A stretch of 23,142 nucleotides of DNA from a virus. The DNA lies in the IMG/VR virus record IMGVR_UViG_3300011432_000227, positions 1 to 23,142 of that record; one strand, 5' to 3'. A model generated the notes under the pieces. That model saw only the letters and a program-made list of their open reading frames with translations, was not told where the DNA came from and did not search any database. Of this stretch, positions 1,033-15,853 are shown piece after piece; within the stretch, counting starts at the first letter, position 1; every line of letters begins with the position of its first letter. The translations under genes were made by a program, and so were the position numbers.

Positions 1033-1600
1033 TGTTAGTGATAGCCTTATTGACTGAAAAAATTTCCGTCTTCTCCCTGCTTATTGCGCTGATGCCGAAC
1101 TGAAACTCAGTAGCACATCTTTCCGTCCATTTCGGGTACTCGTATGACCCGGCGACACCATTGGCGAAATTATACTGGCTTAGTTTTAAGTAATCAATCA
1201 TGGAAGACTTAAACTTGTAGCACATCCGCTTGATGTTTTTTTCTTTGCTGAACAGTTGAATGTCTGTCGCCAATGCGCTGTTCTCGTCGGTGAAAGAACG
1301 TTCACCGGTTGGGGTGCTGTCCAACTGAGAGAACCCAAGCGAGTAAAAGTAAGCGGTCCACGCAATAAAATCTTTAATGTAGTTTTCGTACAAGGCCGCA
1401 TTAGCCGCGCTAAGCGTGTCACCTTGTGGTGCGTATTGGGTTTCAATCTCTTCGTAAAACTCCGCACCAAGAAACGCCCGTAAATCCATTTGAGCCTCGA
1501 CTACATTCGGTTTGATTTTCTTCTCGTCAATATTTGTTGACAAGAAACAAGCCTCGTTAATGTAGCTCAGGGGAATCAAAAGTTTCGTTATCCTGCTCAT
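1025..1600 (-). CDS. Head-tail connector (neck/adaptor) protein
   Basis: This 191-residue, mostly helical protein follows the portal gene directly with an ATGA overlap, the usual place for a head-completion or adaptor protein. The N-terminal stretch (SYINEACFLSTNIDEKKIKP, then VEAQMDLRAFLGAEFYEEI) resembles a family of Bacteroidota phage proteins in which short helices precede a conserved 'L..LLG..fy..I' segment. A long helical middle (YENYIKDFIAWTAYFYSLG) and a polar C-terminus follow. No enzymatic residues are apparent. The neck role is assigned from position and secondary-structure style rather than a diagnostic motif. Confidence 0.65.
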   Translation of the reverse strand: MSRITKLLIPLSYINEACFLSTNIDEKKIKPNVVEAQMDLRAFLGAEFYEEIETQYAPQGDTLSAANAALYENYIKDFIAWTAYFYSLGFSQLDSTPTGERSFTDENSALATDIQLFSKEKNIKRMCYKFKSSMIDYLKLSQYNFANGVAGSYEYPKWTERCATEFQFGISAISREKTEIFSVNKAITNNE

Positions 1601-3213: not shown

Positions 3214-3257
3214 TAGGGTACAAATATGGTTCTATACAGTACTGAATTGGATTTCAT
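3213..3257 (-). CDS. Possible 14-codon leader peptide coupled to portal
   Basis: The ATG at 3257 opens a 14-codon frame, MKSNSVLYRTIFVP, whose TAA overlaps the portal ATG as TAATG. It starts 12 bases after the TTTG of the predicted late promoter, so it would be the first start codon on that transcript. Overlapping stop/start junctions are the rule in this window, which gives some weight to translation. An open frame this short can also occur by chance. Confidence 0.35.
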   Translation of the reverse strand: MKSNSVLYRTIFVP

Positions 3258-3268
3258 AAAATAGATAT

Positions 3269-3314
3269 GCAAAGATGGGTCAACGGCCCACTGAAGTAGA
3301 TTTACTAAAAAGTA
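3269..3314 (-). promoter_or_regulatory. Predicted phage late promoter for the portal operon (copy 2)
   Basis: On the minus strand, a 21-base element (3314-3294) starting TACTTTTTAGTAAATC is followed by a 17-base spacer and then ATCTTTGC (3276-3269). The same arrangement, with 20 of 21 element bases identical, the same 17-base spacer and the same ATCTTTGC, precedes the capsid gene at 15662-15617. The spacers themselves differ. ATCTTTG is close to the Bacteroidota -7 box (TAnnTTTG), but no TTG -33 box sits at the usual distance. The element contains the inverted repeat TACT-TTTT-AGTA, as expected for a dimeric activator site. The promoter role is inferred from conserved position and spacing. 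Confidence 0.6.
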
Positions 3315-3539
3315 TCACCATTTCCCCAGGTCACATTTCTCATCCTCAACCCGGGGTTTAAACCACAACGGGCAACCGCATTCAGTACAGATATTCAGCT
3401 TATTTGACGGGCAAGGCTTACAGATTTTGCGCCTTTCCTGCGCGTATGGAGGGTCGAACAGGATGGCGAAGTAGTACCACCCCTTCAGGATATTGCGAAT
3501 TTTCCTAAAAAAGCGGCTTCGAAAGGGCCATATTGTCAT
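3315..3539 (-). CDS. Cys-rich small protein of phage glycan cassettes
   Basis: A 74-residue frame starts at the ATG at 3539, 35 bases inside the end of the preceding glycosyltransferase gene; a longer upstream extension would only shadow that gene. The first 25 residues are basic and aromatic (MTIWPFRSRFFRKI...WYYF), suggesting an amphipathic membrane-contact helix. Residues 40-69 carry CxxC (40, 43), CxxCxC (51, 54, 56) and C69, a zinc-ribbon-like arrangement, and the protein ends EKCDLGKW. Small proteins with this layout and a terminal 'C-x-x-GKW' occur near glycosyltransferases in other phages, as far as I recall; the function is unknown. It is the last gene of the cassette. No terminator is seen after it, so readthrough into the portal operon is possible. 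Confidence 0.7.
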   Translation of the reverse strand: MTIWPFRSRFFRKIRNILKGWYYFAILFDPPYAQERRKICKPCPSNKLNICTECGCPLWFKPRVEDEKCDLGKW

Positions 3540-4209
3540 TGAAATACTTGATTGTTTGGGCTCGGGGTTCGCTATACTGAAACCCCAAATTCCATCGCTT
3601 ATTGATTTCCGACAGCCTGGCGGCATAAAGCGCATGCCGGTCGGCAATCCGTTCGGCACCACCTACGTGCTTGTAATGCAAAAGCATGGCGTCAGTGGCG
3701 GTAAATCTCACGTTTCCGGTCGGCTTGGCTTGGTGACATCCGTACACGTAACCTATTTCTTTAATGGCTTTAGGATTGAAGCAAATGAGTTTTGAATAGT
3801 TGTCATCTGGGATACCGGTGTTTATGTCAAACCAGCTTCCACGTGGAAGCTCATTCGAAAACATATTGTACCCCCTAGTTTTTAATATCGTGCTGCCCAT
3901 TTCTTGAGACACCTGTAAATGGTCTTTCCCTACCATCAAAATCTCGTCCGCGTCGCAAACAATAACCCAATCCGCGTCCGATCCTTTCCATACGTTGTTT
4001 TTGACCTTCAGGTATTCGGCATCATTCAACTGGCCCTCAATTCCGAACATTCGCACCTCGCATCCCATCGCCTCGGCTATTTCGCGGCTGTTGTCTGTGC
4101 TGAAATTGTCGAAGATGGTAATCTTTGAGCAAAAGGATTGGTATTGTTTGATTGTTAAATGGAGCGTTTCAGACTCATTGAAACACAGTATAAATACTTC
4201 TATGGTCAT
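3505..4209 (-). CDS. GT2-like glycosyltransferase
   Basis: The ATG at 4209 gives 234 residues. It is preferred over a TTG 30 bases upstream because it overlaps the stop of a small upstream gene as ATGA. The N-terminus MTIEVFILCFNESETL is the classic GT-A opening, FDNFSTDNSREIAE follows the 'D.STD.S' pattern, and CDADE (residues 85-89) is the DxD-type metal and nucleotide-sugar motif. The C-terminal half has GCHQAKPTGN and LLHYKHVGG, as in GT2-like transferases that act on surface glycans. No membrane segment is seen, so it probably acts in the cytoplasm or in a complex. The sugar donor cannot be told from the sequence. Confidence 0.85.
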   Translation of the reverse strand: MTIEVFILCFNESETLHLTIKQYQSFCSKITIFDNFSTDNSREIAEAMGCEVRMFGIEGQLNDAEYLKVKNNVWKGSDADWVIVCDADEILMVGKDHLQVSQEMGSTILKTRGYNMFSNELPRGSWFDINTGIPDDNYSKLICFNPKAIKEIGYVYGCHQAKPTGNVRFTATDAMLLHYKHVGGAERIADRHALYAARLSEINKRWNLGFQYSEPRAQTIKYFNDNMALSKPLF

Positions 4210-4319
4210 ATCACGTAAAAAATAATCCACAATTCCCAAATTAGTACTATGATCTGAACGCAGAATAAAGCTATATGTAGCTCCCTTGCATATTGGTCAC
4301 ACCACTCAGAAAATTTCAT
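4206..4319 (-). CDS. 37-residue single-pass membrane protein
   Basis: This small gene lies exactly between the methyltransferase and the GT2-like gene. Its ATG overlaps the upstream stop as ATGA (4319-4316) and its TGA overlaps the downstream start as ATGA (4209-4206). The product has a short polar N-terminus (MKFSEWCDQYAREL) and one hydrophobic segment of about 20 residues (HIALFCVQIIVLIWELWIIF), ending almost at once after it. The perfect double overlap in a tightly packed operon is strong evidence that it is translated. The function is unknown; it might anchor a neighbouring enzyme at the inner membrane. Confidence 0.7.
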   Translation of the reverse strand: MKFSEWCDQYARELHIALFCVQIIVLIWELWIIFYVI

Positions 4320-4840
4320 GGCTTCACAAAATAAAAGCTAGCATCCCAACCCTGTTCCGGAATCAGCGTCCACTTGCCGCCGGTAACTTCATCCACTGCG
4401 CGCCTAACCCCATATTGATTATTCGCGATGTCATGCCCGCAAACCAATCCGCCTTTCTTGACCTTCGGCATCCAAGCGTCCAAGTCTTTCTTAACGCAAA
4501 CATACTCATGACAGCAGTCAATATAAAGGCAGTCCAAGGACTCATCCGGAACATGGACGGCCATGTCCCAGCTGATGCCGCGAAGTATTACGGACTTGTC
4601 GCCAAACTCTCGTAACAAGTCCATCGCGTTTACATAGTTCTTTTCGTGCCAGTAATTTTCAAACCCACCGTCGCCGGTCTGACCGGCAATCTTACCCCAT
4701 GAATCAACAGAATATAGCTTTGAGGCTTTCCAGTATTTGAGAATGTCCCGACTAAATAACCCTTCAGCCACGCCTATTTCAGCGACTACCGGGTTAGGCG
4801 GCAGGATGGTGTATAGTTCAGCTCGCGACTTTAGCGACAT
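4316..4840 (-). CDS. Class I SAM-dependent methyltransferase
   Basis: This 174-residue protein has the glycine-rich SAM loop VVAEIGVAEGLFS (residues 18-30), the acidic end of strand 2 (LYSVDSWGK, 42-50), and a later LYIDCCHEY (105-113) followed by KKGGLVCGHDI (128-138). This is the layout of the small Methyltransf_24-type enzymes often found in glycan gene clusters. They methylate small sugars or glycan ends using S-adenosylmethionine. It overlaps the preceding GT25 gene by 10 bases and the following membrane-protein gene by 4. The substrate is unknown; O-methylation of a sugar is inferred from the neighbours. Confidence 0.8.
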   Translation of the reverse strand: MSLKSRAELYTILPPNPVVAEIGVAEGLFSRDILKYWKASKLYSVDSWGKIAGQTGDGGFENYWHEKNYVNAMDLLREFGDKSVILRGISWDMAVHVPDESLDCLYIDCCHEYVCVKKDLDAWMPKVKKGGLVCGHDIANNQYGVRRAVDEVTGGKWTLIPEQGWDASFYFVKP

Positions 4841-5640
4841 TCGGCAAAGTTAAAGTTCTCAGGTGAAAAATCCTCCATGCGCTCCTGATAAACATAGGCG
4901 CTATTCTCCCGGGTCCCGTTAAGTTGCAAAAATCCGCTCCACCGTGTTATCCCGTTGCCGATATCCGATTGTGAATCCATTTGCTTCACACACCCAGGAA
5001 GAAAGGCATAGCACTTTAATCGAGGTTGCAGTAGGATCATGGCCCAATCTATACCGATTGACCGGTGCAAATTCTCATCCAATAAACCTAAAATCTTTTC
5101 GATGCTGTTTTTGTTCACCAGGTAGGCGAACGTGGCGAATGCCCCGAACGTTTGGATTATCCGGTTGTGTGGGGTTATCTGCTTTGCGTCATACCCAAGT
5201 TCCGCGCTGGCGTTATTCCTGACGTCCTTCGATCCTCCCCTGCAATGCCAGTAAGGAGGGTTAACATGGAAGGACGACCCGAGCCAAAATATGTCCCATT
5301 CGTTTCCTTCGAGCCAGTGATTTATAGCGTCCCACCGTTCAGTAAAATCTTCACAGAAAATCAGATCATCCTCCATAACAAACGCATGTTTATCCATGGC
5401 TAACGCATCCTTCATTACCTGAACCTGGGAGAAGTGACACCCCACAGCCCCAGGTGTTCGCCTTAGCATGGTCGCTATCTTTTCAGATGGCGCTAAAACG
5501 TTTTCAACATCTTCAGGTTTCATGCCCCTGGTTCGAGTCGCGCTAAGACCGATTCGGTTTAATTGTTCTGTCATGTGCGTTAACCGATCGGTCCGATGAT
5601 CGAGGTTAACGAATGATGCATAATAGTTTTCTGTTTTCAT
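4831..5640 (-). CDS. Glycosyltransferase family 25 (LPS-type)
   Basis: The ATG at 5640 gives 269 residues and overlaps the upstream stop as ATGA; a start at 5679 would lie inside the previous gene. Residues 6-20 (YASFVNLDHRTDRL) match the GT25 opening, in which a hydrophobic strand is followed by N-L-x-x-R-x-D-R. Next come AVGCHFSQVQVMKDAL (65-80) and the metal-binding FVMEDD (87-92), then a C-terminal half with GAFATFAYLVNK and DWAMI. GT25 enzymes such as the Lex2B/LgtB group add galactose or glucose to LPS or capsule sugars. No transmembrane helix is present. The transferred sugar cannot be determined. Confidence 0.85.
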   Translation of the reverse strand: MKTENYYASFVNLDHRTDRLTHMTEQLNRIGLSATRTRGMKPEDVENVLAPSEKIATMLRRTPGAVGCHFSQVQVMKDALAMDKHAFVMEDDLIFCEDFTERWDAINHWLEGNEWDIFWLGSSFHVNPPYWHCRGGSKDVRNNASAELGYDAKQITPHNRIIQTFGAFATFAYLVNKNSIEKILGLLDENLHRSIGIDWAMILLQPRLKCYAFLPGCVKQMDSQSDIGNGITRWSGFLQLNGTRENSAYVYQERMEDFSPENFNFAECR

Positions 5641-6290
5641 TTTCTGATGTATAAGGCGTCGCCCCAATCTCCAATCCATTTAGTTTCAACCCGGGTAAAT
5701 CCACGATCAAATAAATACCTATCTATCTGTGCGACTTCCCAACATCCCGTGTAGACTTGCGCCTTATTGACTTCAAGGTAAAGCCACTTCATACTATGGA
5801 TAAGTTCGCCCATACCAACCAACACCTGACCCTCAAAGCCCTGCACATCTGCATTTAGGAAATCAAAATCAACAATTTCATGACTAAAAATAAGACTATC
5901 AAGTCTACGCATGGTCACCTGAATATCCCTGATGTAATGGACGTCCGGATGCTGTTGTTTGTGGGTTCCTAATTCCAAAACACTACTTGACTGTCCGGAG
6001 TTGTTAGCGATGTGCAGCGTCACCGGCACGCTATCAACATCGCCAATCGCGTGATTGAAGGCGATGGCCTGTTTGTTGCCTTTCAGTGTCTCTCTTAACC
6101 GTTCAAACATTTCGGGGTTAGGCTCGTACCAAAACTGTTTTGTTACACCCAATTCAAGATAACACGGTGCCTCTTCGCCACGATTGCCACCGACATGGAT
6201 AATCCCTTTTGGTTTAATCCCGTACCGCTCCCATAATCCTGGAATAGGTCGGCCGCGTCTGTCTAGTGTTGTGTTGAAGGGAATTAGCAT
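5637..6290 (-). CDS. FkbM-family methyltransferase
   Basis: This 217-residue protein has the FkbM pattern: IIHVGGNRGEEAPCYLELG (residues 30-48) is the SAM loop, FWYEPNPEMFERL (53-65) is the strand 2 region, and FDFLNADVQGFEGQVL contains the conserved D-x-x-G-x-E. FkbM proteins O-methylate sugars or polyketides using SAM. It overlaps the upstream 61-residue gene by 7 bases and the downstream GT25 gene as ATGA. Together with a second FkbM-like protein at 7092-6466, it suggests that methyl groups are added to a phage-encoded or phage-modified glycan. The target is inferred. Confidence 0.85.
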   Translation of the reverse strand: MLIPFNTTLDRRGRPIPGLWERYGIKPKGIIHVGGNRGEEAPCYLELGVTKQFWYEPNPEMFERLRETLKGNKQAIAFNHAIGDVDSVPVTLHIANNSGQSSSVLELGTHKQQHPDVHYIRDIQVTMRRLDSLIFSHEIVDFDFLNADVQGFEGQVLVGMGELIHSMKWLYLEVNKAQVYTGCWEVAQIDRYLFDRGFTRVETKWIGDWGDALYIRK

Positions 6291-6469
6291 AGTTTAAGAT
6301 ATTTAGACCAAAACTCTCCCTTCATTCCATTTATAGTGATAGCATTACCTTCTGAATGACCATGAACAGCCCGAATAGCGGTAACTTTTTGACAAGTGAA
6401 ATGCCCTAATTTGCTAGACACTAAATCGCCAACTTTTATTGTGGTAGAAAATAATGATAGTAATTTCAT
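6284..6469 (-). CDS. 61-residue protein with SH3-like/KOW-like pattern
   Basis: The ATG at 6469 overlaps the upstream stop as ATGA and is preferred to an in-frame TTG at 6481. The product has strands typical of a small beta barrel: TIKVGDLVSSKLGHF, then CQKVTAIRA and GNAITINGMKGEFWSKYLKLC. The alternation and the 'VGDLV.s' turn resemble SH3-like adaptor domains. No catalytic residues are evident. I do not recognise a family. It lies between two methyltransferase-like genes, so a helper or substrate-binding role is possible but unproven. Confidence 0.6.
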   Translation of the reverse strand: MKLLSLFSTTIKVGDLVSSKLGHFTCQKVTAIRAVHGHSEGNAITINGMKGEFWSKYLKLC

Positions 6470-7092
6470 ACCATTACCCAATCAGTCCTGTCCGACATTT
6501 TAAAGAACGTGCTTTCATTGTATTGAATTGATGGAATGTAAAGTCCTTCAATCAGATCAGCGAGAACCATTATCATATTCATGTCGGCAATTTGGAATAT
6601 GACTTTGTAACCGTGTTTATCGGCGAGTTTTACCCCTGCTTCAAATGTGAATCCGTAGTAAGAATCTCCGGCCCATACGTGGTCGGGGTTGTAGGCGATG
6701 GTGCGGGAGTTGGTGTAGGCTGGGTTAAATTCGGCTATGACTATGGCTGGTTTATAGAACGGTAACTGCTTATCAAGAATCCAATAATCATTTCCGTCAA
6801 TATCAATGCTTATTATTTTAGGCCATGTCATCGATGGATTATCTGTTAACCTTAAACAGTTGTCAACATTCACCGTTCTGCCGATAAGAGAATCAAAACA
6901 CCATACTTCCCATCCTATATTATCCAGATGTCTTGAATTTGATAATACAAATCCATCTCCTGAACCAATGTCGAACATAACTCCCCTTGATAACCCAATA
7001 CAATGCACGATATATTCCAAGTAAAGCCCCTCCCCGTTTTGGCTGTAAAGGTCGCGGCCTTTTATCTCGTACATGCGTTCGATCCAGTTCAT
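6466..7092 (-). CDS. FkbM-like SAM-dependent methyltransferase
   Basis: This 208-residue protein begins with a helix and then DLYSQNGEGLYLEYI (residues 14-28). The SAM loop is VMFDIGSGDGFVLSN (38-52), the strand 2 acid is in WCFDS (64-68), and IISIDIDGNDYWIL (93-106) is followed by PAIVIAEFNPAY (115-126). This D-I-D-G-N-D-Y-W segment marks a subgroup related to FkbM that is common in phage and surface-polysaccharide clusters. It probably methylates a sugar or glycan; the acceptor is unknown. It overlaps the two-pass membrane-protein gene upstream by 4 bases. Confidence 0.75.
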   Translation of the reverse strand: MNWIERMYEIKGRDLYSQNGEGLYLEYIVHCIGLSRGVMFDIGSGDGFVLSNSRHLDNIGWEVWCFDSLIGRTVNVDNCLRLTDNPSMTWPKIISIDIDGNDYWILDKQLPFYKPAIVIAEFNPAYTNSRTIAYNPDHVWAGDSYYGFTFEAGVKLADKHGYKVIFQIADMNMIMVLADLIEGLYIPSIQYNESTFFKMSDRTDWVMV

Positions 7093-7322
7093 AAATCAAA
7101 AGGGCTTTTAAATGTGAGTATGTTTATTATGGCGTTCATAGCTAACATAAATATCAGAAATGCGAAAACTCCAACAACGAAGATTGTCATACCTATAGCC
7201 GGAAGACAAAACCAAGAAGCGTAATCAATATACCTTTCTGGAATATAACCTAATAGAATCGAGCAAAAAACAATTACTGCAAGTAGGTAATAACCAGCAC
7301 CATAAATATAACCCTTATTCAT
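7089..7322 (-). CDS. Small two-pass membrane protein
   Basis: The 77-residue product has two clear hydrophobic segments, about residues 8-26 (YGAGYYLLAVIVFCSILLG) and about 43-68 (IGMTIFVVGVFAFLIFMLAM and on), separated by a short polar loop (YIPERYIDYAS). The start overlaps the upstream stop as ATGA and the stop overlaps the next start as ATGA. It is one of three small membrane proteins in the cassette. The function is unknown. It could dock cytoplasmic transferases and methyltransferases at the inner membrane, or take part in moving a lipid-linked sugar, but no family motif supports either. Confidence 0.7.
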   Translation of the reverse strand: MNKGYIYGAGYYLLAVIVFCSILLGYIPERYIDYASWFCLPAIGMTIFVVGVFAFLIFMLAMNAIINILTFKSPFDL

Positions 7323-7993
7323 CGTAAGTATTTTCTAAATGCTTTCCAAGAAAGTTTTACCGCCTCCTTCAACTTACTTTCATCGGTAGGAAAACGCTTA
7401 ACATAATTATCATACCACTCTGTCCGGTGTGCTAAGTCCATATCCAACGGAAAGCAAATAATGTAATCGTCCACGATAGTAGTAATATGATCGGGGAAAC
7501 ATTGGCGCAATTTCTCAAAAACAAATTGAAACCTCGGCCACATATCCGGGTTACACGGCCACGGAGGGCGACCATAGAATAATCTCGCATCATCAATCAT
7601 TATCAAGGCATGTTTGCCAACGTGTGCAATGGCTTCTATCTCTTCGAGAATTGGGCATTCCTCCGTACCCTTGGGCGCTTCATGTGGCTCTGACCAATGG
7701 GCATCAAGCCAAAAGAATATGTTAACGTATGGATGTTTTTTTGTTATTGCATGAATGAGGTTCCTGGAATTACCCTCGTGAAGCGTTACGTTATTTGGGA
7801 ACTCCCCCTCTGGCCTTCCTCCAACTATCTCAATGCTGTGGCATGTCTTGAATAGTTTGGCCGCTGCGCGAACAGAGTCCCCGCCAGCCGTTCCGGTTTC
7901 GATGAACACGGGAATACTGTACTGATCGGTGAAGCGTTTGATATACTCAACTGGAAGGCCGCCAGTGTTTACGCCAAAGTGTTTAAAGCCCAC
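7319..7993 (-). CDS. SAM methyltransferase-like protein of glycan clusters
   Basis: The frame starts at GTG 7993 (MGFKHFGVNTGG); no ATG lies closer to the conserved region. The 224-residue protein has a Rossmann-type opening, VFIETGTAGGDSVRAA (residues 29-44), an acidic strand 2 end (HSIEI), FFWLDAHWSE (93-102) and ALIMIDDARLF (129-139). This is the layout of small methyltransferase-like proteins that neighbour glycosyltransferases. The 'ETGT..G.S' loop is less standard than in its neighbours, so the activity is less certain. It overlaps the upstream 61-residue gene by 11 bases. Confidence 0.7.
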   Translation of the reverse strand: MGFKHFGVNTGGLPVEYIKRFTDQYSIPVFIETGTAGGDSVRAAAKLFKTCHSIEIVGGRPEGEFPNNVTLHEGNSRNLIHAITKKHPYVNIFFWLDAHWSEPHEAPKGTEECPILEEIEAIAHVGKHALIMIDDARLFYGRPPWPCNPDMWPRFQFVFEKLRQCFPDHITTIVDDYIICFPLDMDLAHRTEWYDNYVKRFPTDESKLKEAVKLSWKAFRKYLR

Positions 7994-8168
7994 GATATTT
8001 AGGTTTGTGTATTAAAAATGGATACGACTCATGGACTTTAAAACGGGCTACATCTTTCCCTTTATAGGATTGCATGTACTGAGTTACAACACTTTTTAAA
8101 TCAAAACTAACGCCCATAAATCGAGTTTCAGTTTCAGGGTGATTTGTGTCAATTGTTATCAAGCTCAT
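7983..8168 (-). CDS. 61-residue protein of unknown function
   Basis: The ATG at 8168 overlaps the end of the epimerase gene by 20 bases and the stop overlaps the next gene by 11, as expected for a gene in this packed operon. The product is soluble and slightly basic (MSLITIDTNHPETETRFMG..., ending HKPKYRGL). No motif, membrane segment or cysteine pattern is visible and I do not recognise a family. Confidence 0.5.
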   Translation of the reverse strand: MSLITIDTNHPETETRFMGVSFDLKSVVTQYMQSYKGKDVARFKVHESYPFLIHKPKYRGL

Positions 8169-9198
8169 AACGAGATTTTATCCAGTTAAAAGTTTTCTCC
8201 AATCCTTCCCTGAGTGAGTACTTAGGCTCCCAGTTCAAAACCTTACGAATCAAATCGTTGTTGCTGTTACGACCTTTTACCCCAATGGCGTTGCTCGCTA
8301 CGTTCTTAATCTGTATTTCCTTTCCGCTAAACTCAATCACCAACTTTGCTAGTCCGTTTATGCTAATCATTTCCTCGCTGCCGATGTTTATAGGTTCTTT
8401 GAAGTCTGATTCCATGAGCAACCGAACAGCGTCTACACAGTCGTCAATGTAAAGGAATGATCGGGTTTGTAAGCCGTCTCCCCATACTTCGATTTGGTTG
8501 TGATTCTCGCTTGTTGTGGCGTGAAGTAATTCGATAACCTTTCGGCACATGGCGGCAGGCGCTTTTGCCTTTGGGTCTAAGTATTGACCTTCAGGCCCAT
8601 AAATATTATGAAATCTTGCTATACGAATATTTAATTCGTGGTTTCTTGAATAAGCCATATATAGTTTTTCACTAAACAACTTCTCAAAACCATAACAGCT
8701 ATCAGGGTCTGCCGGAAAAGCATCACTTTCTTTTAAGCCCTGATTGTATGTGCTTTCTTGAAGTCCTTTAGGGTATACGCACGCGGATGAGCTATAGAAT
8801 AATTTACCTTTAAAATTCTTGACAGCGTTGCAAACATTAAGATTTATTAGCGCTGAGTCATGCATGATGTCGCTATCATTTTCGCCTGTAAATACATACA
8901 ATGCACCACCCATGAGACATGCAAAATTGTATACCTCATCAAATTGAGTAAGTTGTTCGAATGGTTCTGGCAGAAATGAATATTCTCTGTTTTCGTTTAA
9001 TCTAAAAACCGCATCAACAACTTTTGGGTCTCTTAAATCAGCCAGAACAAATTCATCACAGAAATCTACTTCACCATATCTGTAAGGCTCAATATCAACA
9101 ACGCGAACCCAATATCCTTCTTTTTTTAATCTGCGAGCCATATGATGCCCCACAAATCCTGATGACCCGAGGCAAAGGGCCGTTTTACCTGTTTGCAT
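8149..9198 (-). CDS. NAD-dependent epimerase resembling GDP-mannose 3,5-epimerase
   Basis: This 349-residue short-chain dehydrogenase/reductase-fold enzyme has the NAD loop GSSGFVG (residues 11-17), an SSACVYP segment (137-143) and the catalytic YGFEK (169-173). From RIARFHNIYGP (192-202) onward it closely follows plant and bacterial GDP-mannose 3,5-epimerase (GME): KAPAAMCRK (212-220), EVWGDGLQTRSF (237-248), EPINIGSEEMISIN and VKGRNSNND. Cys140 and Lys212 fall at the positions of the known GME acid/base pair (Arabidopsis Cys145 and Lys217). GME converts GDP-D-mannose to GDP-L-galactose, with GDP-L-gulose as a side product. A segment around residues 65-83 looks inserted. The match is to motifs recalled from the family; GDP-sugar specificity is likely but not proven. 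Confidence 0.8.
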   Translation of the reverse strand: MQTGKTALCLGSSGFVGHHMARRLKKEGYWVRVVDIEPYRYGEVDFCDEFVLADLRDPKVVDAVFRLNENREYSFLPEPFEQLTQFDEVYNFACLMGGALYVFTGENDSDIMHDSALINLNVCNAVKNFKGKLFYSSSACVYPKGLQESTYNQGLKESDAFPADPDSCYGFEKLFSEKLYMAYSRNHELNIRIARFHNIYGPEGQYLDPKAKAPAAMCRKVIELLHATTSENHNQIEVWGDGLQTRSFLYIDDCVDAVRLLMESDFKEPINIGSEEMISINGLAKLVIEFSGKEIQIKNVASNAIGVKGRNSNNDLIRKVLNWEPKYSLREGLEKTFNWIKSRYELDNN

Positions 9199-9853
9199 AA
9201 TCTTGCTTTTTTAGACCCTTATTCCAAGCCTTTTGAACTCCTTTTAATCCCTTGTTCCAAGGAACAAATCCTTTCTTAAACTCAGTTCGCTTTGAGTAGC
9301 TCTTACCCTTATGAATTTCAGCGTACTTCTTTTTATTCTCTTCAGTACATGGAATACCAAATCTTGGCGATTCTTTCCCAAATCTATGCACTCCGAACAT
9401 GGGATTTTTTTCACCCTTAAACTGAGTATAGGTTTTTGGGTTTGACCTTATCTTCTTTGAAATTATATCGCGTATCTCTTGCGAGACATTTGCATTATTT
9501 TCTCCTCCATCATTCTGATTAGTTAATGGCCCATTATTTAAATCACGCCTACCAATTAACTTTATCAGTGTAGTTTCATAATCGTAGGCATCCAACTCAA
9601 GCATATTGAATTTAATCCTAATTATAATAGGGTCAAATCCATCAGATATAATACTTTGAATCCTATTTGTTTTGTGGCTGTTATATTTGGCTTCACCTTT
9701 TTTTACTGACCTCAAATGCTCCCTGTCCCTTGACCTACAACCCTTGCCTATGTAGAATGGCTCATAATCAAATCTTAATCCACCAAAAGTATAATTACCA
9801 AACCTTCTCGGGTCTAAGTAAGAATATACGTAAAATCTATTAGGCTTTGTCAT
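9185..9853 (-). CDS. GIY-YIG homing endonuclease with NUMOD3-type repeats
   Basis: The ATG at 9853 gives 222 residues; a TTG six bases upstream is less likely. The GIY part is FYVYSYLDP (7-15) and the YIG part is FYIGKG (33-38), followed by catalytic-type R40, R42 and R44, the metal-binding Glu93 in DYETTLIKLIG and a DGGEN turn (115-119). The C-terminal half holds DNA-binding repeats of NUMOD3 style (KNPMFGVHRFGKESPRFG) and two WNKGLK units near the end. The gene is visibly richer in A and T than its neighbours, as is usual for mobile homing genes. Its end overlaps the epimerase start by 14 bases, so the element is free-standing and leaves both flanking genes intact. Confidence 0.85.
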   Translation of the reverse strand: MTKPNRFYVYSYLDPRRFGNYTFGGLRFDYEPFYIGKGCRSRDREHLRSVKKGEAKYNSHKTNRIQSIISDGFDPIIIRIKFNMLELDAYDYETTLIKLIGRRDLNNGPLTNQNDGGENNANVSQEIRDIISKKIRSNPKTYTQFKGEKNPMFGVHRFGKESPRFGIPCTEENKKKYAEIHKGKSYSKRTEFKKGFVPWNKGLKGVQKAWNKGLKKQDYANR

Positions 9854-9866
9854 ATACAAATATAAC

Positions 9867-10646
9867 CTAACGAAACTTTATTTTAGTCCAGGAATCAGGT
9901 ATCAAATCTGTCGGCTCCTTGCCAGTAAATCCAGGCCCGAACCAATTCTTTGAACTTGGTGAAATTACTATCCTGTCTGGGTTGTGACCAAGCCACGCCG
10001 CCCACCAGGAAAATGTACTGTTGGCGATGATGTGATGGGAGCATGAAGCCATTTTACTGAGGGCTTCGTATTCGTTGGTTTCATCACAAAAATCCAACAA
10101 CTCCCCACGCCAATTATCTTTACACCATTGTATATCATCTGAGAATACAAGGAACTTAGAATCGTCCGGCACGCGGTCAAACGCTAAAGAAATATACTTG
10201 TTTGTCACGGGTGGAAAGCTATTCGAGTTCGTCACGTAATCCCCACGCCTCACATGGATAGAAACATAGCCTTCATATTCCGGATAATGCTTCAGTGGAA
10301 ACGCGGCCCTCACTTCCTCCTTCGCATTATCGAACCATTTCTCCGACTGAAAGAACCCAACCAGGGTTACATCTCGGCCGTTGAAAGTTGGGATAGGTGA
10401 GTAGTTGAACATCGATACGTCGTGCTGTTCGTAACGCTCACCGACGCCCCCGTAGCACATCGGTAGATTGGGCCAGAACTGAGGCAGTAGCCACGGAGTA
10501 GGTTTATCTTCAAATGTATCACCCGCGCCCCTACGCTGAGGGATGGCCCATTTGTAGCCGTGTTTTTTAGCGTAACCAATGCAGGCTGCGGCTTCGAAGA
10601 GGCAGTTCCCTAAACGCCCGATAGGCCTGAAGGTTATTAGACTCAT
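9867..10646 (-). CDS. Glycosyltransferase family 11 (alpha-1,2-fucosyltransferase-like)
   Basis: This 259-residue protein has the GT11 signatures in order: GRLGNCLFEAAACIGYA (residues 10-26; family form GGLGNQLFQYA), the donor-binding HVRRGDYV (131-138) and IANSTFSWWAAWL (207-219). Known GT11 enzymes transfer L-fucose from GDP-L-fucose in alpha-1,2 linkage; some are relaxed enough to use GDP-L-galactose. The first motif has Cys in place of Gln. The gene is separated from a GDP-mannose 3,5-epimerase-like gene only by a homing endonuclease. It starts with an ATGA overlap after a small membrane-protein gene. The real donor is unproven. Confidence 0.9.
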   Translation of the reverse strand: MSLITFRPIGRLGNCLFEAAACIGYAKKHGYKWAIPQRRGAGDTFEDKPTPWLLPQFWPNLPMCYGGVGERYEQHDVSMFNYSPIPTFNGRDVTLVGFFQSEKWFDNAKEEVRAAFPLKHYPEYEGYVSIHVRRGDYVTNSNSFPPVTNKYISLAFDRVPDDSKFLVFSDDIQWCKDNWRGELLDFCDETNEYEALSKMASCSHHIIANSTFSWWAAWLGHNPDRIVISPSSKNWFGPGFTGKEPTDLIPDSWTKIKFR

Positions 10647-10819
10647 ATCAATCCAGTGGGGTGTTTCTCGATAAACGACCGGGTATAATTGAGCGGGTTA
10701 ACAGCCACGCTACATATTATCACAAAAGAAAACAATGACGCCGGCAAGTTATCACAATAGGCATAGAATATAGTGTTTATTGCGTATAGAATGATAATAA
10801 AGATTGGGAGTGCTTTCAT
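10643..10819 (-). CDS. 58-residue membrane protein
   Basis: A 58-codon frame fills what otherwise looks like a 169-base gap. Its ATG at 10819 overlaps the stop of the GT2 gene as ATGA, and its TGA overlaps the GT11 start as ATGA. The product has one strong hydrophobic segment near the N-terminus (ALPIFIIILYAINTIFYAY, residues 3-21) and a second, weaker one (ASLFSFVIICSVAV, 27-40), followed by a polar tail (NYTRSFIEKHPTGLI). The flush fit at both ends in a coupled operon supports translation. The function is unknown; a membrane anchor or small channel-like role is only a guess. Confidence 0.7.
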   Translation of the reverse strand: MKALPIFIIILYAINTIFYAYCDNLPASLFSFVIICSVAVNPLNYTRSFIEKHPTGLI

Positions 10820-11553
10820 TTCATTTGCTTTAGTTTCTGGATAATCGAATCATGAAACCCCGACGGCGTGCGCCTCACGTTTGCCCCGTAGTGGCTCCCC
10901 TCCTCCGCCCCGTGATTATTAACCCTGTGCTGGTAACTCAAATCAGGAACGACATAAATATTGTTTCCAGCCTCCAACCACCGGAGCATCATGTAAATTG
11001 AATCACTCGTTACGGGGTCGATGTCGGGGTTAAAAACCTTTAGATATTCATGGCGGTTCACAAAGTAGTTAGCCGCGTTTAGCATCGTTGTTACCCTGTC
11101 TGAACTGACAAGCCCGGCGATGTTGTGCCTATTTATACTCACTCCTGAAACGCTTGTAAAATCAAAGTGCGGACGGGCGAATGATGGCGTGTAAATTGTC
11201 TTGTCGTTCACCCCACCGATCAATAAGTTTTCAATCCTGTCAAGATAGGACTTATCCATTATATTGTCGGAGTCGAACAGAACACACCAATCGTTAGACG
11301 CTAGTTCAAGGGACTTGGCTTTGTTCCGGTAGCAATCCAGGTTCGTGTCGTTACGGTGTACCTTGACTTTTGGAAACTCTTTGAAGTACCAAATGACGGA
11401 CTGAAAAACATCGTCTCGGGAATGATCGTCTGAGATTATGATCTCGTCAACACGGTTATCCTGCAATATACTTGCGACCGACTCATAAAGAAGTTTTGAC
11501 CGGTTGAAGTTGGTCAGGCAAATGCTGATTCTAAATTTAGTGTCCTCGCTCAC
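10816..11553 (-). CDS. GT2 family glycosyltransferase
   Basis: The gene starts with GTG at 11553, which overlaps the upstream stop as GTGA. The 245-residue protein opens with FRISICLTNFNRSKLLYESVA, then IIISDDHSRDD (residues 38-48), NLDCYRNKAKSLELAS (71-86) and the metal motif VLFDSDN (91-97). These are the standard GT2 elements in order. The C-terminal half carries YQHRVNNHG, an acceptor-side histidine region typical of the family. It should transfer a sugar from a nucleotide donor with inversion; donor and acceptor are unknown. There is no membrane segment. Confidence 0.9.
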   Translation of the reverse strand: MSEDTKFRISICLTNFNRSKLLYESVASILQDNRVDEIIISDDHSRDDVFQSVIWYFKEFPKVKVHRNDTNLDCYRNKAKSLELASNDWCVLFDSDNIMDKSYLDRIENLLIGGVNDKTIYTPSFARPHFDFTSVSGVSINRHNIAGLVSSDRVTTMLNAANYFVNRHEYLKVFNPDIDPVTSDSIYMMLRWLEAGNNIYVVPDLSYQHRVNNHGAEEGSHYGANVRRTPSGFHDSIIQKLKQMK

Positions 11554-12254
11554 AGGTTTATCACGTTAAAGTTTTTGTCGTTGATCCAGATACTGAAAAG
11601 TCGCTCTAAGATGAAGACGCCTATCGGCCAGTCCTGCCGACCGCTTTTTTGCTGATACTCTTTGATTTCTTTAAGGTCCCTTTTTTTGTGTACGTAACCG
11701 GAATCAACTCCAAATACGGCAGGCCGTTCGCACATGAAATCAATGGCGGGTTTTAGACAGTACCCGACGTACATTTGATATATCCCGTTCCGGGCAATGA
11801 AATGGTTTTCATGAATGGTATGGTTTAAGTCCTCATCTTTTGAAATGTCCGGAACCATGATCCCCAGCGGTTTAAGGAAGTCATTAACGAACACCTTAAA
11901 CGCCTCATCCCATACCTTACCATGCCAATTGCTAGCCATGTCCAAAGGACGAAAGGTAGGGCGGCGCGGTGTGAGTATAGCCACATCGAAATCCGCTGAC
12001 AAAATCTTTTTTTCACTTAATTCAAGATCGTGTTTTAGCACTAACGGGGTTGAACTTTCGGAACGCTTTTGCTTCAGTCTCCATGAACATACGGAAATAT
12101 AATCAGCCTCCGATTGAGGTACAAGCCTGGCAATCACATCGTTTTCAAAGTAGTCCGTTAGTGTGTCGTTGAAATAGACCTTCGCGAACGGGTAGCAGTG
12201 GCCCCGCTGTTCCTCTTTGAAAATGATTTGATGAAAGGTGAGGGTCTTATCCAT
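11550..12254 (-). CDS. Conserved phage glycan-cassette protein, possible glycosyltransferase
   Basis: This 234-residue protein resembles, in my recollection, a family found in glycan clusters of Bacteroidota phages. Members share an N-terminal 'YPFAKVYFNDTLTDYFEN' region (residues 21-38 here), then ADYISVCSWRLKQK (50-63), an ILTPRRPTF segment, IHENHFIARNGIYQMYVGYCLKPA and a C-terminal IGVFILERLFSIWI. The 'ENHF..RN.IY..YV...L.PA' block and the FxLERL ending are reminiscent of sugar transferases acting on surface glycans, but no clear DxD motif can be placed. It overlaps both neighbours by 4-8 bases. The function is not established. Confidence 0.6.
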   Translation of the reverse strand: MDKTLTFHQIIFKEEQRGHCYPFAKVYFNDTLTDYFENDVIARLVPQSEADYISVCSWRLKQKRSESSTPLVLKHDLELSEKKILSADFDVAILTPRRPTFRPLDMASNWHGKVWDEAFKVFVNDFLKPLGIMVPDISKDEDLNHTIHENHFIARNGIYQMYVGYCLKPAIDFMCERPAVFGVDSGYVHKKRDLKEIKEYQQKSGRQDWPIGVFILERLFSIWINDKNFNVINL

Positions 12255-12441
12255 TGAGCCACTCAGCTAGTCGTCTAACACACCCCGAACAATCTTCCTG
12301 AAACTTTTGACCAGCCTCTTGATAAAGTTGTGCGGCCCGTCTCCAACTCGGCAGATCAAAATTGAATTGGTGGATCTCCCGGCTCGCCTTCATGTAGGCC
12401 AGTAGTTCGTCCTTGGTCATGTCTGTAATCCGCTTACTCAT
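12247..12441 (-). CDS. Small helical protein with a CxxC pair
   Basis: The 64-residue product is helical and begins MSKRITDMTKDELLAYM. The middle is LPSWRRAAQLYQEAGQKFQ (residues 30-48) and the end is DCSGCVRRLAEWLNG. Short phage proteins with a 'W..A..LYn...g.....C..C' pattern occur beside glycosyltransferase genes in related phages, but their role is unknown to me. The start overlaps the stop of the upstream HTH gene as ATGA, which ties it to the cassette. Confidence 0.6.
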   Translation of the reverse strand: MSKRITDMTKDELLAYMKASREIHQFNFDLPSWRRAAQLYQEAGQKFQEDCSGCVRRLAEWLNG

Positions 12442-12590
12442 CCCTTGAAAACGTCAGTGTTAACACTTATAACCATGTGAGTAACAATGACTTTGGCCTG
12501 AACTCCTTTAGGTAAAGATTTGGATTTAACCATGCGGTAAACAGTAGATCGGTTCACCTTCAATTTGTGCGCGAACTGCGCAACGGTCAT
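12438..12590 (-). CDS. 50-residue helix-turn-helix protein, first gene of the cassette
   Basis: The ATG at 12590 gives 50 codons whose stop overlaps the next gene as ATGA. The first 30 residues form a compact helix-turn-helix: MTVAQFAHKLKVNRSTVYRM followed by VKSKSLPKGV. The pattern is that of excisionase/MerR-like or resolvase-type DNA-binding domains, in which a second helix after 'V.RSTVYRM' recognises DNA. It lies about 46 bases downstream of a perfect 14-bp palindrome overlapping the predicted promoter, so it could regulate its own operon. A GTG four codons upstream is an alternative start. A DNA-binding role is likely; the target is inferred from position. Confidence 0.7.
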   Translation of the reverse strand: MTVAQFAHKLKVNRSTVYRMVKSKSLPKGVQAKVIVTHMVISVNTDVFKG

Positions 12591-12604
12591 TTGCTTAATC
12601 ACGA

Positions 12605-12640
12605 GTGCAAATATATAACAGAAATAATGAGACTTGCAAC
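12605..12640 (-). promoter_or_regulatory. Predicted Bacteroidota-type promoter for the glycan cassette
   Basis: On the minus strand, TTG (12639-12637) is followed by 21 bases and TATATTTG (12615-12608). This fits the Bacteroidota form TTG-N17-23-TAnnTTTG exactly. Transcription would start about 7 bases further on, near 12601, leaving a leader of roughly 11 bases before the ATG at 12590. The promoter lies after the terminator of the capsid operon and before the first cassette gene, as expected for a separately transcribed unit. It differs from the two predicted late promoters, which lack a TTG box. Confidence 0.65.
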
Positions 12641-12649
12641 ACGTGTTGC
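12636..12649. repeat. Perfect 14-bp palindrome overlapping the -33 box (operator candidate)
   Basis: GCAACACGTGTTGC is self-complementary over all 14 bases. Its right arm on the minus strand supplies the TTG of the predicted cassette promoter, so a protein bound there would block RNA polymerase. The nearby 50-residue HTH protein is a natural candidate ligand; a host factor is also possible. Confidence 0.55.
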
Positions 12650-12659
12650 GTTGACAGGT

Positions 12660-12691
12660 AAAAAGAAAAGGAGGCTACTAACCCCCCTTTT
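12660..12691 (-). terminator. Intrinsic terminator after the capsid/tube operon
   Basis: On the minus strand, AAAAGGGGG (12691-12683), an 8-base loop and CCTCCTTTT (12674-12666) form a 9-bp stem with one G-U pair. CTTTTTACC follows. It lies 22 bases after the stop of the tube-like gene and just before the cassette promoter, so it should insulate the cassette from capsid transcription. Confidence 0.75.
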
Positions 12692-12713
12692 CCCCTATGT
12701 AACAACCGCTTGT

Positions 12714-13265
12714 TTAAATAATTCTTGCGTTCAGGTACGCCAGTGTCGTGGCAACCGTTCCAACATCGAACCGGATTGGTTTGGTTTTCTCGGCTCCTTC
12801 CAGTATTACAGTATCAGACACGTCGTCCGCCGCGGCCTGCCCTGTGGTTCCAACGTCGCCAGGCATCCCGGTTAATCCGTTGCCGTAACCGTTGATAAAG
12901 AACTGGTCATTGTTGTTCCGATAAATAGTAAAGGCATCCTGAGCCTGTAACAGCCTTTGAATCTCTACGTCGTCCTGAGTGGACAGCGCGATCAATTTGA
13001 CCGTGCTGCGGTGTGTCCAGAAGCCATTGCCTCCAGCCCCCTTGACGTAAACCCAGTCGTATTTGTGCGCGAATTTCTGCCCCTCAAACTTCACCAGGCC
13101 ACGATAGGCGCTAAATGAAAGTGTTGATACGGGCGCTGCCTGAACGCCGCTGATGGGCGCACTCAGGTCGGAAACATACCCTATGTAGAAGTCCTTATCA
13201 GCCCCGGCTGGGAAGTTAAGGTCTCCACAAACAAGAGTCGTTCCGTATTGTACGCGGCATGCCAT
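12714..13265 (-). CDS. Virion structural protein, possibly tail tube
   Basis: This 183-residue beta-rich protein is encoded directly after the capsid gene, with a 2-base gap. It begins MACRVQYGTTLVCGDLNFPAG. A region with VEIQRLLQAQDAFTIYRNNNDQFFINGYGNGLTGMPGDVG is followed by SDTVILEGAEKTKPIRFDVG. This layout (a 'nndg.w.l.G..nGl' turn, a Gly-rich loop, then a 'tltLsG.E' strand) is seen in Bacteroidota phage virion proteins that I associate with the tail tube. No tail-tube gene is otherwise visible in the window, which supports the idea. A head decoration or head-completion protein is the alternative. A strong terminator follows. Confidence 0.6.
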   Translation of the reverse strand: MACRVQYGTTLVCGDLNFPAGADKDFYIGYVSDLSAPISGVQAAPVSTLSFSAYRGLVKFEGQKFAHKYDWVYVKGAGGNGFWTHRSTVKLIALSTQDDVEIQRLLQAQDAFTIYRNNNDQFFINGYGNGLTGMPGDVGTTGQAAADDVSDTVILEGAEKTKPIRFDVGTVATTLAYLNARII

Positions 13266-13268
13266 AGA

Positions 13269-15611
13269 CTAGTAGCTGATTGTGGTTAAATCGCAATGGA
13301 TAGCAGGCAAGAAGCCCATTATCATGTTCGAGCGGTAGTACCGCTTGTTGTCTTTTTTCTCAAACCAGCTATCGATTTTTTCCAGATCGCTGGTGTTCTC
13401 GATGCCAAGAATATGGTTCTCTTTGATCGTGAAAGAAATCAAATGGCGGGTTGTAGCTGACAGCGGGTTGGATGCATCTGCCAGGAAGTCGTCCCAAATC
13501 GTGATCGGAATAACAGGGATTCCGCGGAAAGTCAACTGTCCAGGGATGCCGTCGATCGCCTGCTTAAATGCAAGTTCCGTAACCGCGCCGGTGGCAGTGT
13601 ATGAGGTGTAAAGGTTCTCCCAGATCGACCTGGTTACCAGGAAACGCGCTTTACCTTTGTCAATCCCCTCCTGCTTCAGGAGCAGGCTTGAGTTCCCGTA
13701 TATTGCCAGTAATTCGTTATAAGCTGCGGAGGCCGCTAAGGCTCCGGTTCCGAAGTTCGTCTTGCTCGCGTAAACGCAATAGTTTGATGCTCCTGAGTTG
13801 TCAATGAGCGCCTGCCAGTAGCCATCAATTTGGTTCCAGTCGGCGTTTGATGAGTTCGCATCACCGAAGGAAATGCGCCTCCAAATATCACGACGCAAGG
13901 CATCTTTCAGGCCATCAACGATCATCCTATCAATTGGGGTACCAGCTGGATCAAAAGATGCGGTCCCGGTCTTCAGCCATTCTTGGGCTAGCACATTGTA
14001 AGAGCCGGTCAGTTGATTGGTGAAATCGTCCTTACACCATCCCTCGTACATTTCAAATGGTTTCAACTGAATCGGTTTTGAAGTGATGTCAAAAGATGAA
14101 CCTGTTACGGCCTGATCGCAACCAGTGTAAGGCTTCAGAACCTTGCTCATGGTTGGCGCGATGTGGTAACGCTTCTTATCTGACGCCCCAAGGTCAACAG
14201 TAAACACGTCAGCTATTGCCGGCGTTGATAATGTTGGCTTGAAAAACAGCTCGGTTGCTAGTATGCCATTCCAAGTGTAATTCAAATTGGTTTCCAAAAT
14301 AGAAACCGCCTCAGGGCCACCGGAACGGTAATCCGTAAATCGGGTGCCGTCGGAATACTTACCGCCAGGGTAGTAGCGTTCCAGCCATGGCAAGAAATCA
14401 GCTAGGTGTGAGCGCGTTGCTTTAATCTTCAGTGCTTGTTCGTTGTTCATGGTCCCGATGGCAAATGCCTTGTTTGGTATGTGTCCTTCAAATTGCCGGC
14501 CTTGGTCACCGACTCCTTTTTTCTTCAGTTCTTCCAGTTCTTTGTCCTTGTCAGCAAGAGCGACGGCAAGGCGTTTCTGTTCAGCCTCCGCTGTTTTAAG
14601 CGTTTCGGCTGCGAGTTTTTCTTGTTCAGCCTTCAGGGCCGCTTGTTCAGATACGGTTTTTTGAGCCAGTTGGGCCTTTAATTCCGCGTTTTCGCGGGCC
14701 AGGCGCTGGGCTTCGGTTTCCTGTGGGGCAACGGGTGGCGCGGGCGGTCCTGCCTGAGCGGGTTTAATTTCCGTCACCTTACCGGCAACACAGGTAATTG
14801 ATTGACCGTCCTCGGTCACATAGTTTCCCTCTGCCGGTTTGCCGTCAATCGTTGCGGTGGCTCCAACAGCCGGCACTTCACCTTCGAGTGAAATTTTGCC
14901 CCCCTCTTTCAACATCAGATCAACGGCCTTTGGTGAATCAATAACTTCGGACTTAATCACATCCATGATTTTAGCCCATACGTTTTTATCCTTGCTCATG
15001 GCTTTTGCGCCCTTTTTTCCGAGGGCTACGGCTTTAAGTTTTGTTTCTTGTGATTTGTCTACGTAATTAATTGCCTCGTCCGCCAGACCTAAGTCAACGG
15101 CCATCTGTGCGCTCATGTGAGTTTCCTTTTTCATGAGGGCTTTTACTTCGTCGAGAGTCTTTCCCTTGCCGCGCTTGGTCATGGAGTTCATGTACACGTC
15201 AGCCATTTCATTTTCAATGATGCGAAGTTCTTTAGCCGCGCTCTCGAATGAATCGGAATCGGCATACCCTGAATTTCCTCCAAGGCCACTAACACCAAAC
15301 TTTGGGTAGTGAATCATTACACGGCCGGGTGATAATATCTTGATTTTGCCGCCGGTTAAATCGGAGGCAAGCATAATGAAAGACCCCATTGACTGGGCTT
15401 CCTCAACAATAGAATCGATTGGTATTTTGAAGGCCTGGGCGTACTGAACTAATTTATGGTAGCCTTTATATCCAGCCCCAACCGATCCGCCACCCGTAGA
15501 AATATGATGAATGATTTTATCAACCTCGCCAATGTTGCGAAGCTGGGACATGATTAATTCGGGGTAGTCTTCCTCGATTTGTCCCTCTGTGAAAATGTGC
15601 CCTTCGTTCAT
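13269..15611 (-). CDS. ClpP-like protease, scaffold and major capsid protein in one polypeptide
   Basis: The 780-residue product has three parts. Residues 1-185 resemble an S14 (ClpP-like) prohead protease: HHISTGGGSVGAGYKG (35-50), nucleophile region AQSMGS with Ser75 or Ser77 nearby and most probably the Ser before MGS, His101 in VMIHYP, and KETHMSAQMAVDLGLADEA (162-180). A small beta region (238-282), a Pro/Ala linker and a coiled coil rich in Ala, Glu and Lys (about 296-366) form the likely scaffold. From about 380 to the end is a capsid-type domain with FLPWLERYYPGG and QIDGYWQAL. The protease probably cleaves itself and the scaffold away during prohead maturation. The ATG is only 6 bases past the TTTG of the predicted late promoter. 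Other phages usually have separate genes for these parts, but such fusions are known. Confidence 0.85.
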   Translation of the reverse strand: MNEGHIFTEGQIEEDYPELIMSQLRNIGEVDKIIHHISTGGGSVGAGYKGYHKLVQYAQAFKIPIDSIVEEAQSMGSFIMLASDLTGGKIKILSPGRVMIHYPKFGVSGLGGNSGYADSDSFESAAKELRIIENEMADVYMNSMTKRGKGKTLDEVKALMKKETHMSAQMAVDLGLADEAINYVDKSQETKLKAVALGKKGAKAMSKDKNVWAKIMDVIKSEVIDSPKAVDLMLKEGGKISLEGEVPAVGATATIDGKPAEGNYVTEDGQSITCVAGKVTEIKPAQAGPPAPPVAPQETEAQRLARENAELKAQLAQKTVSEQAALKAEQEKLAAETLKTAEAEQKRLAVALADKDKELEELKKKGVGDQGRQFEGHIPNKAFAIGTMNNEQALKIKATRSHLADFLPWLERYYPGGKYSDGTRFTDYRSGGPEAVSILETNLNYTWNGILATELFFKPTLSTPAIADVFTVDLGASDKKRYHIAPTMSKVLKPYTGCDQAVTGSSFDITSKPIQLKPFEMYEGWCKDDFTNQLTGSYNVLAQEWLKTGTASFDPAGTPIDRMIVDGLKDALRRDIWRRISFGDANSSNADWNQIDGYWQALIDNSGASNYCVYASKTNFGTGALAASAAYNELLAIYGNSSLLLKQEGIDKGKARFLVTRSIWENLYTSYTATGAVTELAFKQAIDGIPGQLTFRGIPVIPITIWDDFLADASNPLSATTRHLISFTIKENHILGIENTSDLEKIDSWFEKKDNKRYYRSNMIMGFLPAIHCDLTTISY

Positions 15612-15616
15612 CTACC

Positions 15617-15662
15617 GCAAAGATTACGCGGTAACCGAGTAAAGTGGATTTACTAAAAAGTA
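15617..15662 (-). promoter_or_regulatory. Predicted phage late promoter for the capsid operon (copy 1)
   Basis: The 21-base element at 15662-15642, the 17-base spacer and ATCTTTGC at 15624-15617 match the copy upstream of the portal operon at 3314-3269, although the spacers share no obvious sequence. TTACT-TTTT-AGTAA forms an inverted repeat inside the element. The element overlaps the last codons of the small HTH gene. The TTTG ends 6 bases before the ATG of the protease-capsid gene, so the mRNA would have almost no leader. The promoter role is inferred. Confidence 0.6.
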
Positions 15663-15853
15663 ACGTCAGGGCATTTGCAGCGTCTTATTTTATCGACTCC
15701 AGGTAGACTTAACCCGTGTAGTTGGGCGACGGTTTCGCGATCCTTTCCGCTTCTGAGGTCGTTGCACACGTCCCAATGGGTCAGACTCTTGATGTTCATC
15801 AGGCCACTTTGAGCCATTGCTTTTATCTGATCGCGCTGGAATTGTAGGATCAT
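15653..15853 (-). CDS. Small HTH-type protein between tape measure and capsid genes
   Basis: The 66-residue protein starts with an ATGA overlap on the tape measure stop. After a helical N-terminus (MILQFQRDQIKAMAQSG), residues 27-60 give a helix-turn-helix-like run: WDVCNDLRSGKDRETVAQLHG, then LSLPGVDKIRRCKC. A basic recognition-type helix and two terminal cysteines follow. Short proteins of this kind are common in Bacteroidota phages; they are usually assumed to bind DNA. Its stop codon lies inside the inverted repeat of the next promoter, which makes it a candidate late regulator, but nothing in the sequence proves this. Confidence 0.6.
   Translation of the reverse strand: MILQFQRDQIKAMAQSGLMNIKSLTHWDVCNDLRSGKDRETVAQLHGLSLPGVDKIRRCKCPDVTF

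Follow-up and report, generated by a model that had tools for sequence, protein, structure and literature searches.

In a 23,142-nt stretch of viral DNA (positions 1 to 23,142 of the IMG/VR record IMGVR_UViG_3300011432_000227; hereafter the window), two copies of a spaced motif precede the operons coding for the capsid and portal proteins. Each copy combines a dyad with a host-type −7 box at a fixed spacing, and the same architecture recurs in related phages, with dyads that agree within a phage and differ between phages. The dyad is almost certainly a genuine operator, and a comparison across genomes makes it likely that the two copies are the operators and −7 boxes of co-regulated late promoters, on which a miniature activator resembling Mor and C of phage Mu would act together with the host RNA polymerase.

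The motif, TACTTTTTAGTAAATCYACTT-N17-ATCTTTGC, occurs exactly twice in the window, at 15662-15617 and 3314-3269 of the minus strand, with the spacing of 17 given in a preliminary description of this DNA. Chance does not account for it, as the extended motif had no match in 100 dinucleotide shuffles; its 16-base core has no further site in the window even at up to three mismatches. One copy lies directly 5′ of the open reading frame (ORF) for a fused protease and capsid protein and the other 5′ of the portal ORF, as that description had also noted. Both start at or overlap the stop codon of the preceding gene and end just 5′ of the next operon. The inverted repeat that had been pointed out within the element, TACT-TTTT-AGTA, is the dyad, and its capsid copy overlaps the stop codon of an ORF for a 66-amino-acid (aa) helix-turn-helix (HTH) protein. 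The ATCTTTG earlier likened to the Bacteroidota −7 box does belong to a host-type box, the bounds of which we refined to AATCTTTG and CATCTTTG, each one base off TAnnTTTG. The parts of the system in the window are as follows:

15651..15662, minus strand: operator dyad TACTTTTTAGTA, capsid promoter copy; predicted center −43.5, placed from a −7 box at −12 to −5 (PMC9723704)
15642..15650, minus strand: operator extension AATCCACTT, capsid copy; the same in the portal copy except for C/T
15618..15625, minus strand: −7 box AATCTTTG of the capsid promoter; 1 mismatch to TAnnTTTG; predicted transcription start near 15613
3303..3314, minus strand: operator dyad TACTTTTTAGTA, portal promoter copy
3294..3302, minus strand: operator extension AATCTACTT, portal copy
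3270..3277, minus strand: −7 box CATCTTTG of the portal promoter; one base off TAnnTTTG; predicted transcription start near 3265
15653..15853, minus strand: gene for the 66-aa HTH protein, a candidate activator of the late promoters; it closes the tail operon, with its stop codon inside the operator
13269..15611, minus strand: head-maturation protease fused to the major capsid protein; the ATG is predicted at +3, almost without a leader
1597..3213, minus strand: portal protein (PHROG portal, 7e-30)

We identified relatives of this phage through their capsid and portal proteins; they share the gene order of the window, and their hosts are probably Bacteroidota. No relative of the capsid was found among 84,980 bacterial and archaeal genomes, and there is therefore no prophage context. 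At the same two places, 5′ of the homologous capsid and portal operons, these relatives carry a dyad with other letters: GTGACA-N5-TGTCAC at both promoters of G002, GTGGTAGT-N5-ARCGCCAC in G005/G015 (two contigs of one sample, 96.5% identical across their overlap), TAAC-N8-GTTA in G008, GGTAAC-N5-GKTACACC in G014, GTGACG-N8-TCAC in G011, and dyads of the TAGG...CCTA types in G003 and G004. In G001, GTTAC-N8-GTAAC at the capsid promoter corresponds to GTTGC-N8-GCAAC at the portal promoter, a compensatory change. This shared layout before homologous operons supports the earlier suggestion of an activator site for virion genes. The literal motif is private to this phage whereas the architecture is conserved, and the proposed refutation by absence of the motif from relatives, in which the letters are indeed missing, would mislead. 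More generally, when the letters of a regulatory site co-evolve with the protein that reads it, a literal-motif search of relatives can overlook the site. The 16-base core does have 59 exact matches in the scanned viral contigs; none has the extended motif, and we treated them as chance.

Agreement within phages was quantified for the 10 phages with both promoters readable, using regions anchored on the −7 box. Each promoter found its best match in the partner promoter of its own phage, in every row and column of the comparison, with one tie in a column; the mean match was 13.9/18 within phages against 8.0 between them (p = 1e-5 by permutation, the lowest value that the test can give). The 16 nt adjoining the −7 box matched little (p = 0.09), and 20 nt gave p = 0.014. 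Without anchoring, the within-phage match persisted at p = 5e-5, with G008 and G012 then aligning best outside the dyad. Taken one by one, most single-sequence dyad scores were not significant against shuffles; we put the weight on pairs and on spacing.

A second, distant family centers on the locus L081, whose capsid is 25% identical to that of the window and whose capsid and portal promoters carry TTGTAA-N5-TTACAA. A search with the L081 capsid protein recovered 41 loci, giving a family of 42; several are near-duplicates, and the distinct sequences number 16 for the capsid and 12 for the portal. Wherever TTGTAA-N5-TTRCAA occurs exactly on the plus strand of these 42 loci, a perfect TAnnTTTG comes 21 nt further on, with the capsid or portal gene next. 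The unbiased view of the arms comes from unanchored listings, in which they are kept in every readable capsid promoter and in 17 of the 18 portal promoters; their invariance in the promoter set used for the −33 count below is partly by construction, because the search pattern required the arms. The recognition helix of the HTH protein and the dyad arms are both conserved in this family and both diverse in the first.

Within a phage, both promoters keep the same dyad-to-box distance to within 1 base (21/21, 28/27, 28/28, 27/27 and 28/29), and nearly all relatives have the host-type TAnnTTTG as downstream box, or a box that departs from it by one or two bases. Since the Flavobacterium TAnnTTTG box lies at −12 to −5 (PMC9723704), the window dyad would span −49 to −38, centered at −43.5, with the capsid ATG at +3. 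The predicted centers are −43.5 in G003 and G004, −43 in G006, and −42 in G002 and the second family; a second spacing class (G001, G005/G015, G008, G011 and G014) places the center at about −48 to −53. As the preliminary description had it for the window, the −33 TTG is missing: a TTG at that distance was seen in 1 of 23 and in 0 of 28 promoters. Most phages of both families are predicted to have capsid transcripts that are leaderless or carry leaders of a few bases; leaderless mRNAs make up only about 4–6% in these hosts (PMC9723704, PMC7366714).

The long records contain only two copies of the dyad and box; they include G008, which is probably a complete circle because of its 127-bp exact terminal repeat. 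G012 has a 99-bp repeat and a weak dyad. No copy was found 5′ of the terminase/tail operon in the long records scanned, with patterns written from the two known sites that further degenerate sites could escape. The expectation that the motif precedes late operons thus holds for two of the three virion operons, capsid and portal, and not for the terminase/tail operon. By eye, no matching dyad pair was seen in the isolated phages phi46:1, Larrie, BS-TP3 and TCUEAP1.

The protein quite likely to bind the dyad, judging from its position and covariation, is the product of the small HTH gene. In all 12 first-family records with a readable capsid start, its ORF stops at the capsid dyad or immediately before it, and likewise in the second family. 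These proteins have 61–84 aa, with only a short helical N-terminus before the HTH, and for two of them AlphaFold2 gives confident models of a helical HTH fold (predicted local distance difference test score 92.5 for G001 and 88.5 for the window). Matches to the PHROG ‘late transcriptional activator’ families phrog_532/836 were obtained for G001 (6.1e-5, phrog_532), G008 (4.8e-4), G011 (0.0036) and, weakly, G014. Matches to the Pfam Mor domain (PF08765, 9e-4) stay below the cut-off and come from G001, G005 and G012, with a best score among the relatives of 19.6 bits (G001) against 24.9; we did not trust this profile alone, as the same loose search matches 9 of 14 control genomes at E ≤ 1. Sequence and fold searches of the PDB returned generic HTH proteins only: with the G001 model, Mu C (9l0x) came sixth (E 1.4, not significant), and it was not among the best 50 matches listed for the window model. 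Members of the Mor/C family have an N-terminal dimerization domain and a total of about 130–140 aa. The C-terminal DNA-binding HTH of that family is present here, as seen in the AlphaFold2 models and the profile matches of relatives; because the scores stay under the curated cut-off and the N-terminal domain is absent, we do not file these proteins as Mor/C members.

The link between protein and dyad is further suggested by covariation. The best two-way split of the phages by HTH similarity coincides with the spacing class, an outcome reached by 2 of 252 labelings (the split and its mirror), compared to 16/252 for the protease and 42/252 for the tape measure protein. Because the early regions of these phages are mostly non-homologous, the HTH gene is, among the genes seen, the only one for a DNA-binding protein to accompany the virion module; no other conserved DNA-binding gene was seen among those examined.

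From these sequence features, we infer HTH binding, activation and a temporal order. The small HTH protein would be produced from the last gene of the terminase/tail operon and, as a dimer, bind the dyad at the capsid and portal promoters. The bound dimer would recruit or activate the primary-sigma form of host RNA polymerase, with no −33 contact by sigma at these promoters, in the mode of Mor and C at phage Mu promoters. Capsid and portal expression would thereby depend on earlier expression of the tail operon, and transcription would start at, or a few bases from, the capsid start codon. The Mu promoter Pm has no −35 element and needs Mor, whose dyad is centered at −43.5 (PMC4287176). Of the features of such promoters, a good −7 element without a −33 element is present here, and a dyad over the −35 region near −43.5 is found in the window, its spacing class and the second family, with five phages outside.

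Several points weigh against this reading. The window HTH protein matches no Pfam or PHROG family; the Mor/C matches come from relatives, cover the HTH part only and lie under the Pfam cut-off, and the proteins are roughly half as large as Mor and C. Flavobacterium johnsoniae likewise yielded no −33 motif (PMC7366714), and the lack of one is therefore no proof of activator dependence. The dyad lies about 5–9 bp further upstream in five phages, so the polymerase contacts cannot be the same throughout. Finally, the −7 boxes of the first family were mostly chosen by eye, and the weak G012 dyad was retained in the tests.

Activation rather than repression is very likely, on the layout of these promoters. 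A repressor, either the HTH protein or another phage protein, might sit on the dyad and block polymerase, so that capsid and portal stay off until a late stage or during lysogeny; beside or over the −33 region, the dyad could occlude sigma region 4, and the (non-significant) fold matches include small dimeric HTH repressors, among them KorA. We consider this unlikely, since good −7 boxes without −33 are typical of activator-dependent promoters, the dyad ends at about −40/−41 in five phages, clear of the core promoter, and the HTH matches are to late activators. Moreover, a repressor from the neighboring late operon would oppose its own virion module.

That the regulator of the dyad is encoded elsewhere, in the early region or by the host, with the neighboring HTH gene unrelated to it, is distinctly improbable. 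The window is only part of the genome, and other HTH-type proteins occur in early regions; however, those regions are mostly non-homologous whereas the dyad travels with the virion module, and HTH similarity tracks the spacing class better than do two neighboring proteins. A host regulator would leave the different dyad of each phage unexplained.

The other alternatives are hardly tenable. A promoter recognized as a whole by a phage-encoded sigma factor, as the preliminary description had considered, would fit a two-part conserved element with fixed spacing, but nearly all relatives have the host housekeeping TAnnTTTG as their downstream box, no −10/−35 pair distinct from the host consensus was found, and the part that varies between phages, in sequence and distance, is a dyad unlike a sigma −35 element. 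An RNA hairpin in read-through mRNA, serving as terminator or protein-binding site, is equally implausible: although the dyads of several relatives fold as 5–7 bp hairpins better than shuffles, the window copies (−2.1 and −3.4 kcal/mol) do no better, the G008 capsid copy forms none, no stable hairpin followed by a T-run is present (there is no T-run directly after the window dyads), and the fixed distance to the −7 box would stay unexplained. A leftover direct repeat or recombination site around a capsid–portal cargo, also raised at the outset, has in its favor two direct repeats flanking about 12 kb with a variable glycosyltransferase/methyltransferase block, yet it is scarcely credible given that the arms, the spacing and the −7 box alone are preserved and the bases between diverge, that copies in relatives share the arms only, and that recombination between the two copies would delete the capsid gene.

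The closest known parallel to the proposed activator circuit is phage Mu, in which Mor (middle) and C (late) act at Pm, Plys, PI, PP and Pmom; as here, where it is a candidate, an HTH activator encoded by the phage serves several virion promoters, and Pm likewise has a dyad over the −35 region and a −10 without a −35 (PMC4287176, PMC4461284). Each of the two, Mor and C, acts specifically at its own promoters (PMC4287176, PMC4461284), without cross-activation (PMC4287176). The systems differ in that the protein here is about half the size, with HTH-only similarity below the Pfam cut-off; the box is the Bacteroidota TAnnTTTG, the predicted starts are near-leaderless and the dyad differs per phage; and the gene ends the tail operon instead of lying in a separate middle region. 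Phage P2 Ogr and P4 Delta are very small late activators encoded with virion genes, and their late promoters have a dyad on the upstream side; in both respects they resemble the circuit proposed here. They differ from it in that Ogr has a zinc finger and its site lies further upstream (about −55). Promoters of the Bacteroidota primary sigma factor (TAnnTTTG at −7, TTTG at about −33) have the same −7 box at the same distance from the start (PMC9723704, PMC7366714); here, the −33 element is missing, a dyad stands instead, and the capsid start codon is near +1.

Two cultured phages with distantly related capsid and portal proteins also have a small HTH-like gene after the tail genes, as here, namely Bacteroides phage BS-TP3 (gp61, ‘Mor domain-containing protein’, 78 aa, L147 1503-1739) and Elizabethkingia phage TCUEAP1 (gp13, 82 aa, L148 7210-7458); unlike here, no matching dyad pair was seen in them by eye. 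Both might serve as culturable models for this circuit.

We found no description of such late-gene control in Bacteroidota phages in the literature searched, which did not extend to subscription journals and preprints. Tentatively, these phages could deploy minimal (about 60–80 aa), mutually orthogonal late activators, with operator specificity turning over faster than the virion genes while the two operators are kept in step. If so, related phages in one cell would not cross-activate each other's capsid and portal genes. The set provides about a dozen natural candidate activator–operator pairs with different letters and one architecture, from which the recognition code of a very small HTH activator might be read; it could also help to predict late promoters straight from phage contigs in metagenomes, and it is a possible source of compact orthogonal switches for laboratory Bacteroides strains.

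On the minus strand, the genes of the window run from the tail genes through the 66-aa HTH ORF, the protease–capsid, a small head gene, sugar and methyl transferases and a DUF6171-like ORF to the portal. Two further features flank the portal promoter:

3213..3257, minus strand: putative mini-ORF of 14 codons, located past the portal promoter; ends in TAATG, overlapping the portal ATG
3315-3662, minus strand: DUF6171-like zinc-ribbon ORF (weak match)

The TAATG stop/start overlap of the mini-ORF could couple its translation to that of the portal. Protease and capsid form one ORF in the window and several relatives, and two ORFs in G006, G008, G012 and G014. The capsid–portal interval (3315-12441) codes for glycosyltransferases, methyltransferases, an epimerase and a GIY-YIG nuclease, many with homologs at the same place in relatives, and these are possibly genes for decoration of the virion or the host surface. 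At the head of this block is a conserved CxxC protein of about 60 aa (window 12247-12441, G011 6682-6861, G012 31657-31845).

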